64,000 nt of DNA from Pontimonas sp. (GTDB lineage Bacteria; Actinomycetota; Actinomycetes; Actinomycetales; Microbacteriaceae), in assembly GCA_017857245.1 (NCBI GenBank), contig JAFMDO010000003.1, positions 1 through 64,000 of the forward strand. The letters run 5' to 3'. How positions within the stretch are numbered: position 1 is the first letter of the stretch; every line of letters begins with the position of its first letter. Shown one piece after another: positions 34,603 through 47,331 of this stretch. The notes beneath the pieces are model-generated. The model saw nothing but the letters and a program-made list of their open reading frames with translations, searched no databases and was not told the DNA's origin. The position numbers were made by a program, and so were the translations under genes.

Positions 34603-35061
34603 CTAGCTCTTCCTGATGGAAAAGAAATCCGTCAATAATCTCGAGCACTGTTCTTCCAGGACGCCCCCGATGACTTCCTCTACGCGGTGCGGCAAAGTTC
34701 GATCGCGCACTAAATCGTGCTTGCTCCCCGCAGCACCTGCTTTGTCATCCCACGCCCCAAAAACCAGTTGACTAATCCGAGCCTGGGTAATCGCACCGGC
34801 ACACATTACGCAGGGCTCCAGGGTCACCATGAGCGTGTGGCCCTGGAGATTCGCCAGCCCTAAGGCCTTGCCTGCTGCGCGAAGTGCGAGAATTTCAGCA
34901 TGAGCGGTCGGATCGCTGTCGCGTTCTTTGGTATTAGTGGCGGTGGCAATGACAAAGCCCTCGGGGTCCATCACCGCGGCCGCCACCGGCACGTCGCCCG
35001 TCTCCAGCGCGTGCTGAGCCACCTGAATTAGGCGCTCCATCGCCTCTTCATGCTCAGCCAT
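34603..35061 (-). CDS. tadA: tRNA-specific adenosine deaminase
   Basis: HAEILALRAA and PCVMCAGAI deaminase motifs. Confidence 0.9.
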   Translation of the reverse strand: MAEHEEAMERLIQVAQHALETGDVPVAAAVMDPEGFVIATATNTKERDSDPTAHAEILALRAAGKALGLANLQGHTLMVTLEPCVMCAGAITQARISQLVFGAWDDKAGAAGSKHDLVRDRTLPHRVEEVIGGVLEEQCSRLLTDFFSIRKS

Positions 35062-35095
35062 GGCCTAACCCTAGCTCGGCTAGGGTTAGGCCATG
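35059..35095. promoter_or_regulatory. Perfect palindromic divergent promoter of tadA/upp
   Basis: CATGGCCTAACCCTAGC-tcg-GCTAGGGTTAGGCCATG; each arm holds TAGGGT-N6-ATG. Confidence 0.75.
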
Positions 35096-35728
35096 CAGGT
35101 TCATATCGCCGATCATCCGCTCATTTCCCACAAGCTCAGCCTGCTTCGAGACAAGAGCACGCCCTCTCCAATCTTCCGCGCTTTGACCTCCGAGCTCGTG
35201 GCGTTGTTGGCGTATGAGGCCACCAGAAACATCAGGGTGTCTGAACAGGAGATTCACACACCCGTCACCACCATGCTCGGCACCAAGCTTGCGGAACCGC
35301 GACCTGTTGTGGTTCCTATTCTTCGAGCTGGTTTGGGAATGCTGGAGGGTATGGTCCAACTTCTTCCCAGCGCTGAGGTGGGATTCCTTGGAATGGTCCG
35401 CAATGAGGAAACCCTGCAGCCCAGTGTGTACGCGGAACGCCTGCCCGAAGACCTTGCCGACCGTCAGTGCTTCATCCTGGACCCTATGTTGGCCACCGGT
35501 GGCTCACTGTTGCAGGCCATTAATTTCATCTTCGACAAGGGCGCAACCGAGGTCACTGCGGTGTGCCTACTGGGGGCCCCTGAGGGTCTCGCGGCAATTG
35601 AGAAAGCGACCCAAGGTCGCGACGTGACCATTGTTCTTGGGGCACTGGACGAAAAACTTAACGAAAAAGGTTTTATTGTTCCAGGGCTTGGCGATGCAGG
35701 CGACCGACTCTATGGCACCGTCGGCTAA
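35093..35728 (+). CDS. upp: Uracil phosphoribosyltransferase
   Basis: [32 protein letters not shown]. Confidence 0.97.
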
Positions 35729-35737
35729 CTTCGTTAC

Positions 35738-35767
35738 TTGACCAGGAATCAATACCTTCGCCATAAT
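35738..35767 (+). promoter_or_regulatory. Putative sigma70-type promoter for Cys leader ORF
   Basis: TTGACC-N18-CATAAT, 6 nt before ATG 35774. Confidence 0.65.
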
Positions 35768-35773
35768 CAAGTC

Positions 35774-35845
35774 ATGGACCTGGCCCGCGCTTCCCTGGTG
35801 AAAACCTCTGCGCCCTCCAGCTGTCGCTGTCGAATGTGTCGCTGA
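35774..35845 (+). CDS. Putative cysteine-rich leader peptide (uORF)
   Basis: ATG..TGA: MDLARASLVKTSAPSSCRCRMCR; three Cys codons in last seven; below ORF-track cutoff. Confidence 0.65.
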   Translation: MDLARASLVKTSAPSSCRCRMCR

Positions 35846-35896
35846 TCCTTCCCATTCCCCTTTTCCGGGCTTGTGCCCCTCAAAGAATCGACAGTT

Positions 35897-36499
35897 ATGA
35901 CTCCCTCTTCTTCGAGTGAACCCCGAGGGTTCGCTCTTTATGTCGGCATCAGTGAAACGGATGCCTTGGCCGCCGGCCAGAGCCTTCAACAAATTGTGAC
36001 GAACCTGAAAGCCTCGGTAGAAAATTTCGTCCCTGGATCCGAAACTCATGCGGCCATCGCGCTGGCTCCGCGCGGTGCAGGCGGCAAGGATCTCGACATC
36101 GTTCGGATGGCGCTGCATGACCCGGTCGCACTGGCTAAGCTCCAGCCGCCTACCCCCGCCAAAGCGGCCGGGGTGAAAATCGATATTTCCCGCAAGCGCG
36201 TCATCCTCGATGGCGAGATTGCCCCTCTCACGTTTAAAGAGTTCGAGATGCTGCAATTCTTGGTCCTGCGTGAAGGACAAACCGTGAAGCGGGAGGTAAT
36301 TATCGAGGCGCTCTGGGTCGAGGGCGAGGAAGAAACCCCCAGCGCGAGAACGATTGATGTTCACGTGCGACGTTTGCGGGGCAAACTTGCTCGTTTCGAA
36401 GACATCGTTCGCACGGTGAGGGGTGTGGGATACCGCTTTGATCGCCATGCAGACGTCGCCATCGAATACGGCGTCGCTCCTTCGCCGGACATGATTTAG
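35897..36499 (+). CDS. Orphan winged-helix (OmpR/PhoB-type C-terminal) DNA-binding protein
   Basis: LTFKEFEMLQFLVLREGQTVKREVIIEALW..SARTIDVHVRRLRGKL..IVRTVRGVGYRF; start uncertain (GTG 35873 or ATG 35897); no receiver domain. Confidence 0.8.
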   Translation: MTPSSSSEPRGFALYVGISETDALAAGQSLQQIVTNLKASVENFVPGSETHAAIALAPRGAGGKDLDIVRMALHDPVALAKLQPPTPAKAAGVKIDISRKRVILDGEIAPLTFKEFEMLQFLVLREGQTVKREVIIEALWVEGEEETPSARTIDVHVRRLRGKLARFEDIVRTVRGVGYRFDRHADVAIEYGVAPSPDMI

Positions 36500-36600
36500 C
36501 GATTTCTCGACGCCGTTACCATTTTGTTATATAGTGGGAGAATCGTTGGTGACGCTGCGACAGCTCTCGAACATGTGATTGCAGAACCTCTCTTGGTGAA

Positions 36601-36640
36601 GATTAGGGCCGGCTACTCGCCTCAGTAGCCGGCCCTAATC
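36601..36640. terminator. Perfect 16-bp stem hairpin terminator
   Basis: GATTAGGGCCGGCTAC-tcgcctca-GTAGCCGGCCCTAATC followed by ttct. Confidence 0.8.
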
Positions 36641-36682
36641 TTCTGCCTCGGAACTATCAGCTAGCCGCTCTAGGCTGGGCCC

Positions 36683-46359: not shown

Positions 46360-47331
46360 GTGAGTAAGAATTTTCAGGTCATTACTGTGACACCGGCGCC
46401 CGCCATCGATCGGACCTATCTGGTGTCATCGCTGGATCTTGGCGGGGTCCACCGCGCCACTCGTTCGGGCGCGGAGTTCGCCGGCAAAGGAGTGAACGTC
46501 ACCCAGGCTCTGGTTCTCGGCGGCGTTCCCTCACAAGCCATCGCCCCGCTCACCGCAACCGACCTAGCACAGTGGTCTGGAGCATCTTTTCTTCTTGGGT
46601 CCCCCTCATCACAGAGTGTGCGCAACAACATCACCATTCTCGAACCTGACGGGCGCACGACCAAGATCAACGAAGCTGCACCGGCCCTGTCGGAATCTGA
46701 GTGGGACGCCCTTCAGTCGCTGGCTGTGGCTGAGGTTAAGCTCAACAACGCCGCCTGGCTTTTGGTTGCAGGAACAATTCCCACCGCCTCCTCGGGCACG
46801 CCCCACGCGCTGTCTTCGCTCTTGAAAGAAGCTTCCGGGGTGGGTTGCCAGGTTGCCTTAGACACCTCCGGCCCGGCTCTTCTTGAATCCGCTCGGGCAG
46901 GCATTCCCGACTTCATCAAGCCCAATGCCAGCGAGCTTGCCGAATGTGTGTCTCGCCCAATGACAACGCTGGGCGATGTCATTGACGCGGGTCAAGAAAT
47001 TGCCAGCTGGGGAGTCGACATGGTGGTTGTGAGCTTGGGCCCCGACGGGATTGTTGGGATGAGCGCCACCGGTGCTGTCCATGCGTGGACCGAACCCCTC
47101 GAGGTGCTGAACACTATTGGGGCCGGGGACGCCAGCGTTGCGGGATTCCTCGCCCACCAGGTGTCCCACCCCGGTGATCTCGCTGGCGCAGTTTCGCAAG
47201 CCGTTGCCTGGGGAGCCCAGAAAGTTCAACAAGCCGGATCTCAGTTGGAGAACCTCACTTCCCTTCCCGCTGTGCACTCAACACATTCACCAGACCGGTC
47301 GTGGAAGCTGGCGGAGCCCGGTCGCCTCTAG
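46360..47331 (+). CDS. PfkB-family hexose-phosphate kinase (1-phosphofructokinase/tagatose-6-P kinase type)
   Basis: VITVTPAPAIDRTYLV..GKGVNVTQALVLGG; GAGDASVAGF; GTG start. Confidence 0.85.
   Translation: MSKNFQVITVTPAPAIDRTYLVSSLDLGGVHRATRSGAEFAGKGVNVTQALVLGGVPSQAIAPLTATDLAQWSGASFLLGSPSSQSVRNNITILEPDGRTTKINEAAPALSESEWDALQSLAVAEVKLNNAAWLLVAGTIPTASSGTPHALSSLLKEASGVGCQVALDTSGPALLESARAGIPDFIKPNASELAECVSRPMTTLGDVIDAGQEIASWGVDMVVVSLGPDGIVGMSATGAVHAWTEPLEVLNTIGAGDASVAGFLAHQVSHPGDLAGAVSQAVAWGAQKVQQAGSQLENLTSLPAVHSTHSPDRSWKLAEPGRL

Follow-up and report, generated by a model that had tools for sequence, protein, structure and literature searches.

A conserved cysteine-rich leader peptide ahead of an orphan winged-helix regulator in Microbacteriaceae: a candidate leaderless cysteine-responsive attenuator

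In this study we find that a short upstream open reading frame (uORF) with Cys codons clustered at its C-terminal end precedes the gene of an orphan winged-helix regulator in 77 of 80 named orthologous loci. Conservation of such a uORF before orthologues had been set beforehand as a test of the attenuation proposal made in the first-pass annotation, and the proposal comes through it. That the uORF is a conserved regulatory element is close to certain, a grade that reflects our judgement and not a computation. We further propose that it is a leaderless attenuator through which the regulator gene responds to cysteine, a reading drawn from sequence comparison to which we assign a probability of roughly 60%.

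Results

The locus in Pontimonas

The window, that is, the whole stretch of 64,000 nucleotides that was analysed, belongs to the genome of a marine Pontimonas, 1.28 Mb in size and 97.7% complete. The genes at the locus run in the order tadA (minus strand), upp (plus), uORF (plus), regulator (plus), a conserved hairpin element and a photolyase gene (Table 1). The promoter proposed in the first-pass annotation, with 6 nt between the -10 element and the uORF start at ATG 35774, is confirmed in coordinates and spacing: the -35 hexamer occupies 35738-35743 and the -10 hexamer 35762-35767, they have 10 of 12 consensus matches across an 18-nt spacer, and 0.6 promoter-like sites would be expected by chance in the 1.1 kb scanned. 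The Cys-rich uORF described there is likewise found in the window sequence; it has 23 codons, ends in SCRCRMCR before the stop, carries three Cys codons near the C-terminus (mostly 2-3 in relatives, with a minimum of one), and stops 51 nt before the regulator ATG at 35897 and 27 nt before a GTG at 35873, as had been claimed. Two other start codons were considered. TTG 35738 was rejected as a uORF start, as this TTG belongs to the -35 element, and GTG 35873 is an unlikely regulator start because all of the 11 Pontimonas leaders that were aligned keep the ATG in place.

Table 1. Features of the uORF-regulator locus, in window coordinates.
Feature	Position	Strand	Evidence or remark
upp (uracil phosphoribosyltransferase), recurrent neighbour 5' of the locus	35093..35728	+	PF14681; synteny
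Promoter TTGACC-N18-CATAAT	35738..35767	+	6 nt 5' of uORF start, implying leaderless mRNA
Cys-rich leader peptide uORF, MDLARASLVKTSAPSSCRCRMCR and stop	35774..35845	+	77/80 named loci; diverged form in family f6
5' arm of predicted long-range RNA helix, GCUGUCGA, within uORF	35826..35833	+	MFE and centroid folds; enrichment
Conserved core TGT-CGA-ATG-TGT (Cys-Arg-Met-Cys)	35828..35839	+	CGA in 75/75 peptide-selected uORFs
3' arm of predicted helix, UCGACAGU, ribosome-binding region, immediately 5' of regulator start	35888..35895	+	MFE and centroid folds
Orphan OmpR/PhoB-type winged-helix regulator, 200 aa	35897..36499	+	PF00486; N-terminal domain without Pfam match
Separate conserved element, candidate small RNA	36507..36642	+	Promoter-like TCGACG-N17-TATAGT and 19-bp hairpin 36599-36642

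Conservation of the uORF

The 80 orthologous regulator loci came from one named scan. From 75 of them the uORF was extracted by a peptide-tail pattern that left the Arg codon free, and two more uORFs (L075 and L087, with the last Cys changed to Ser) were recovered through the DNA core. As for the three loci without it, the regulator stands directly 3' of upp in L050 and L111, while L088 retains the front of the uORF and has lost the Cys tail. The regulator is also present and the uORF absent in two more distant genus-labelled genomes (G005 and G010). The uORF starts and promoters in the 77 loci were picked by machine; TTGAC occurs in 64 of the 77 picked promoters, the spacer is nearly always 18 nt and the -10 element lies 5-8 nt from the start, so that leaderless transcripts are predicted for the relatives as for the window. 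However, about five picked starts (L041, L045, L049, L064 and L067) are internal codons, and the promoter statement is therefore not valid for every row.

A search of 148 genomes with TGYTGYCGAATGTGY gave matches in 55 genomes of 51 genera, with about one copy per Microbacteriaceae genome having it, nearly always before the regulator and mostly a few hundred bases upstream. Nine extra matches, each in unrelated sequence, were rejected as further uORF copies, as was the window match at 46938, which lies inside a frame read as carbohydrate-kinase-like. A longer and stricter pattern, run on 297 genomes of the class, matched three of them, each from one of the two families discussed here, and missed many true members. 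Among individual loci, the L049 uORF shows an in-frame tandem expansion with VLMMP four times; L157 (G023), from a small and A+T-rich-looking genome, has a divergent uORF ending in MRSKMCA, with AAA-ATG in place of CGA-ATG; and L041 is a typical Microbacteriaceae locus in a record titled as an Acidobacteria MAG, which is probably mislabelled.

A typical peptide outside Pontimonas reads MTxxxxxLTSxEAxGTAGMMMPxxAVMCCRMCA before the stop. The C-terminus is kept at the peptide level too; within Pontimonas the N-terminal two thirds of the peptide are not conserved. Short peptides can act in trans, and the kept C-terminus would suit a functional small protein; alternatively, the uORF might be a mere translational-coupling device that senses nothing. 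We find either hardly credible, since the N-terminal two thirds vary in Pontimonas, the gaps of 50-300 nt are too long for direct stop-start coupling, and the nucleotide-level constraint on CGA described below would be unexpected.

A diverged form of the uORF occurs in a second family, f6, which is probably Micrococcaceae as judged from Arthrobacter plasmid matches. Its regulator, about 50% identical, was found in all 61 f6 genomes searched. The f6 uORFs were sought by CGAATG itself, so the invariance of CGAATG in this family holds by construction. A CGAATG tail is present in 29 of 50 f6 loci, the other 21 showing no such uORF, and TGYCGAATG stands near the stop in 25 of the 50; in L167, L180, L182 and L184 another codon (Arg or Tyr) precedes CGAATG. 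The f6 peptides end in CCRM(H/Q/C/S)A and variants, and that of L184 has one Cys only. By our own reading, automatic f6 starts being unreliable, translation would begin at a leaderless GTG (VNxNS...).

Codon-level and nucleotide-level constraint

The 66 non-Pontimonas Microbacteriaceae uORFs of the peptide-pattern set allow two kinds of constraint to be told apart in one uORF. Cys invariably stands before CGA, written TGT in 47 and TGC in 19, and this synonymous variation indicates selection on the amino acid. The next two codons are CGA and ATG in 66/66 each, and CGA-ATG is also found in all nine listed Pontimonas uORFs. Among the Arg codons that the regulator genes use, CGA accounts for 5.8%, and its invariance despite such usage indicates selection on the nucleotides. 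The codon after CGA-ATG is TGT in 41, TGC in 23 and CAC in 2, some members carry His, Gln, Ser or Pro in place of the last Cys, and the stop codons vary freely. The best conserved block in an alignment of 33 leaders is TGYCGAATGT. Thus the Cys before CGA is kept in this family and the last one is replaceable; on the aligned sequences, the most conserved element of the uORF is CGA-AUG rather than the Cys run.

This pattern bears on two other proposals. The uORF could sense the decoding of rare CGA by inosine-34 tRNA-Arg, via TadA, or general translation stress, with the Cys codons as context. Indeed, no single Cys codon is as well conserved as CGA-ATG, and the gene next beyond upp (34603-35061, minus strand) is presumably tadA, recognised from its sequence. 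However, RNA pairing also explains the conservation of CGA, the preceding Cys is kept with synonymous variation, and the divergent L157 has AAA-ATG instead; we consider this proposal very unlikely. As a separate observation, the tadA product makes the inosine that decodes CGA, and it may be coincidence that tadA lies near this uORF and its invariant CGA. It is also highly improbable, in our view, that the peptide works as an arrest peptide or as a metal (copper or zinc) sensor through Cys, Met and CRMC, like the copper uORF CruR, which combines CXXC with a C-terminal RAPP. CRMC is a CXXC motif, and MMM precedes it in many Microbacteriaceae uORFs, but the RAPP arrest motif is absent, MMM is missing from Pontimonas uORFs, the last Cys can be replaced, and the motif lies one residue from the C-terminus and would thus be buried in the ribosome when needed. 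Its absence in Pontimonas led us to reject the MMM tract as a general uORF feature; elsewhere the tract may reflect a local hairpin, GGCAT-GATG-ATGCC.

Predicted pairing between the uORF tail and the regulator leader

In the window, both the MFE and the centroid fold pair GCUGUCGA with UCGACAGU, the overall z of -1.62 being unexceptional, and the GAATCGAC block at the 3' arm is invariant in 11 Pontimonas leaders. We counted complements to the uORF tail of at least 6 bp in the 20 nt before the regulator start, f6 being scored at -60 to -20. Such a complement lies at the ribosome-binding site in 7 of 9 Pontimonas loci (0.24 expected) and in the f6 interval in 23 of 25 (1.2 expected). The corresponding figure for other Microbacteriaceae is 16 of 63 (1.8 expected), the remaining 47 showing no clear complement there. 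Since related sequences are not independent, all of these counts overstate the evidence.

The f6 alignment comprised 23 leaders; L181 and L189, in which the partner is absent, were left out, and the partner block had not been used in the locus search. When aligned unguided, GCATTCG is the best conserved block in the rest of the leader, and RNAalifold pairs CGAAUGC with GCAUUCG unprompted, with all seven pairs in 21 of 23 rows and T-A for C-G in two rows. Among the 22 distinct rows the seventh pair is C-G in 19, U-G in 2 and U-A in 1. Five of the seven pairs never vary and are therefore silent on covariation; the covariation score was reached in 4 of 500 shuffles, a value not to be taken as a probability. 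A per-locus RNAduplex test in other Microbacteriaceae was not significant (median p 0.36), and the long-range helix was absent from the RNAalifold result for the Pontimonas set alone. Masking by a stalled ribosome, when modelled, shifted the predicted accessibility only slightly (from a mean of 0.44 to 0.50 in Pontimonas). The helix is shortened in the Pontimonas members with GCTCGAATG (L032, L033, L037 and L004), in which the downstream block is still conserved, so this block may have another role too. Taken as predicted complementarity, the match between tail and downstream leader stands out statistically in Pontimonas and f6 but reaches the ribosome-binding site in only 16 of the 63 other Microbacteriaceae leaders; in our judgement RNA pairing is likely to contribute to uORF action.

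The same Cys sensor could have another output, namely Rho-dependent transcription termination in the C-rich gap between uORF and regulator rather than control of regulator translation. The window gap contains 19 C and 8 G, and across the three groups the first 60 nt of the gap average 0.39-0.41 C and 0.18-0.24 G. The interval from uORF to regulator (35846-35896) yielded no intrinsic terminator, such as a trp-type attenuator would have, and Rho has been suggested for mycobacterial cys leaders (PMC1262725) and shown for CruR. On the other hand, rut sites are not reliably callable from sequence, and Rho would leave the complementarity of the uORF tail and the ribosome-binding region unexplained; we regard this output as unlikely. 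At the start of the regulator reading frame (35914-35936) a terminator-like hairpin, GAACCCCGAGGGTTC followed by TTTAT, was also observed, which is absent from some relatives.

The regulator and the element behind it

The regulator had been described as an OmpR/PhoB-type winged-helix protein with a non-receiver N-terminal domain, and our analysis agrees: the winged helix matches PF00486 at 4.8e-20, and a Pfam search of the N-terminal domain gave no match. The window protein contains no Cys residues. AlphaFold models the DNA-binding domain well and the linker and the end of the N-terminal domain poorly. It is the DNA-binding domain that carries the structure matches, and the solved structures nearest to this C-terminal domain are those of the GlnR DNA-binding domain (PDB 8hml and 8hig); the N-terminal domain has no recognised match. 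The regulator was matched in 149 of 149 relatives searched, distant-family matches reflecting the shared DNA-binding domain only, and nearly all Microbacteriaceae have an orthologue.

GTYAC, a pattern chosen post hoc, is enriched in 53 Microbacteriaceae upstream regions (28 observed against 8.5 expected; GTRAC, 8), and paired copies lie mostly at distances of 10, 12, 20 and 22 bp. Since OmpR/PhoB factors recognise direct repeats with about such spacing, it is possible, judging from these motifs, that the regulator controls its own gene. GTYAC direct repeats about 10-12 bp apart, possibly an OmpR/PhoB-type site, were seen 5' of the uORF promoter in L058, L075, L095, L096 and L102.

The first-pass annotation had also placed a strong terminator behind the regulator and called the locus a stand-alone unit. 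The hairpin exists, but it lacks a proper T-run and is part of another conserved element, distinct from the locus, that has a promoter-like site to itself; the stand-alone description is thus only partly right. This element, composed of a GTTACC-N5-GTTATA promoter region, TGTGATTGCAGGACACTCTTGGTGCAAGGG and the 19-bp hairpin, also lies 3' of the regulator in L023, L025, L041, L043, L051 and others, and on the opposite strand in Cryobacterium. An Rfam search of the locus, including this element, gave no meaningful match.

Sulfur context

NIR_SIR (PF01077) was found neither in the Pontimonas genome itself nor in 18 genus mates, many of them incomplete, and in only 4 of 24 genomes sampled from other Microbacteriaceae genera. 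The single PF01507 match in the Pontimonas genome was read from its length as CysD, not CysH. As sulfite reductase was not found, it is plausible that Pontimonas depends on reduced sulfur. NIR_SIR is present in the f6 genomes searched, and the uORF is therefore not confined to genomes that lack it. That the regulator governs a sulfur regulon is a tentative proposal, in our judgement less likely than not.

Discussion

Our preferred reading is that the uORF attenuates the regulator gene in response to cysteine. When Cys-tRNA is plentiful, ribosomes would complete the uORF and depart, and the tail of Cys codons and CGAAUG would then pair with the downstream leader, keeping regulator synthesis low. 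When Cys-tRNA is scarce, a ribosome would pause on the Cys codons just 5' of CGA-AUG and cover the tail, which would break the helix, free the ribosome-binding region and allow the regulator to be made. The uORF would thus probably turn the regulator on when cysteine is short, and in our judgement it is fairly likely to sense Cys-tRNA. Cysteine-responsive attenuation, as first put forward, gains from the conserved uORF, the synonymous Cys variation and the possible pairing; the modest share of other Microbacteriaceae with ribosome-binding-site pairing, the varying number of Cys codons and the dispensable last Cys speak against it. More speculatively, the regulator may then adjust the uptake or use of reduced sulfur. 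A family-wide cysteine-starvation switch, in which Cys-codon pausing beside the CGA-AUG arm controls a GlnR/PhoB-like master regulator of reduced-sulfur scavenging, among actinobacteria that in many cases lack assimilatory sulfite reduction, strikes us as rather unlikely in full. If true, one small uORF would convert Cys-tRNA supply into a transcriptional programme. The locus may give access to sulfur regulation in Microbacteriaceae, a family in which no sulfite reductase was found in Pontimonas or in 20 of 24 other genera sampled.

Leaderless polycysteine uORF attenuators in mycobacteria were reportedly described by Canestrari in 2020 (Mol Microbiol 114:93). Compared by description, the present uORF shares with the mycobacterial ones its predicted leaderless start, a C-terminal cluster of Cys codons and conservation before the downstream gene; it differs in occurring in other families, in having a winged-helix regulator and not a Cys enzyme as target, and in its near-invariant CGA-AUG tail, with usually 2-3 Cys codons and down to 1. 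One mycobacterial target, Rv0485, we take to be a transcriptional regulator, presumably of another family than the window regulator. Leaderless Cys-rich uORFs have been found in mycobacteria before cysA2, nirA and Rv0485 (PMC4633059), and the one upstream of Rv0485/Msmeg_0932 (PMC4633059, Fig 7B) is, by description, like ours in being Cys-rich, leaderless and placed before a regulator gene. Mycobacterial Cys uORFs act by Cys-responsive translation attenuation, according to work cited in PMC13236596. Short Cys leader peptides were predicted in 2005 in front of the cys operons of Mycobacterium and P. acnes and the cbs gene of B. longum (PMC1262725); they share with ours the runs of Cys codons next to the stop and the absence of an intrinsic terminator, and differ in that they precede biosynthetic genes. 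The literature found, in which subscription journals were thinly covered, held no paper on the present uORF-regulator locus and no report of Cys leader peptides in Microbacteriaceae or Micrococcaceae. The locus itself may thus be undescribed, but a Cys-rich uORF before a regulator has its precedent in Rv0485/Msmeg_0932; by the same token, a target within a cysteine-responsive gene set is no strict mark of such uORFs. The present system is therefore a variant of the mycobacterial polycysteine uORFs. Through it the cysteine-responsive uORF architecture of mycobacteria would reach two further actinobacterial families, where it is placed before an uncharacterised regulator that is itself nearly universal in those families.
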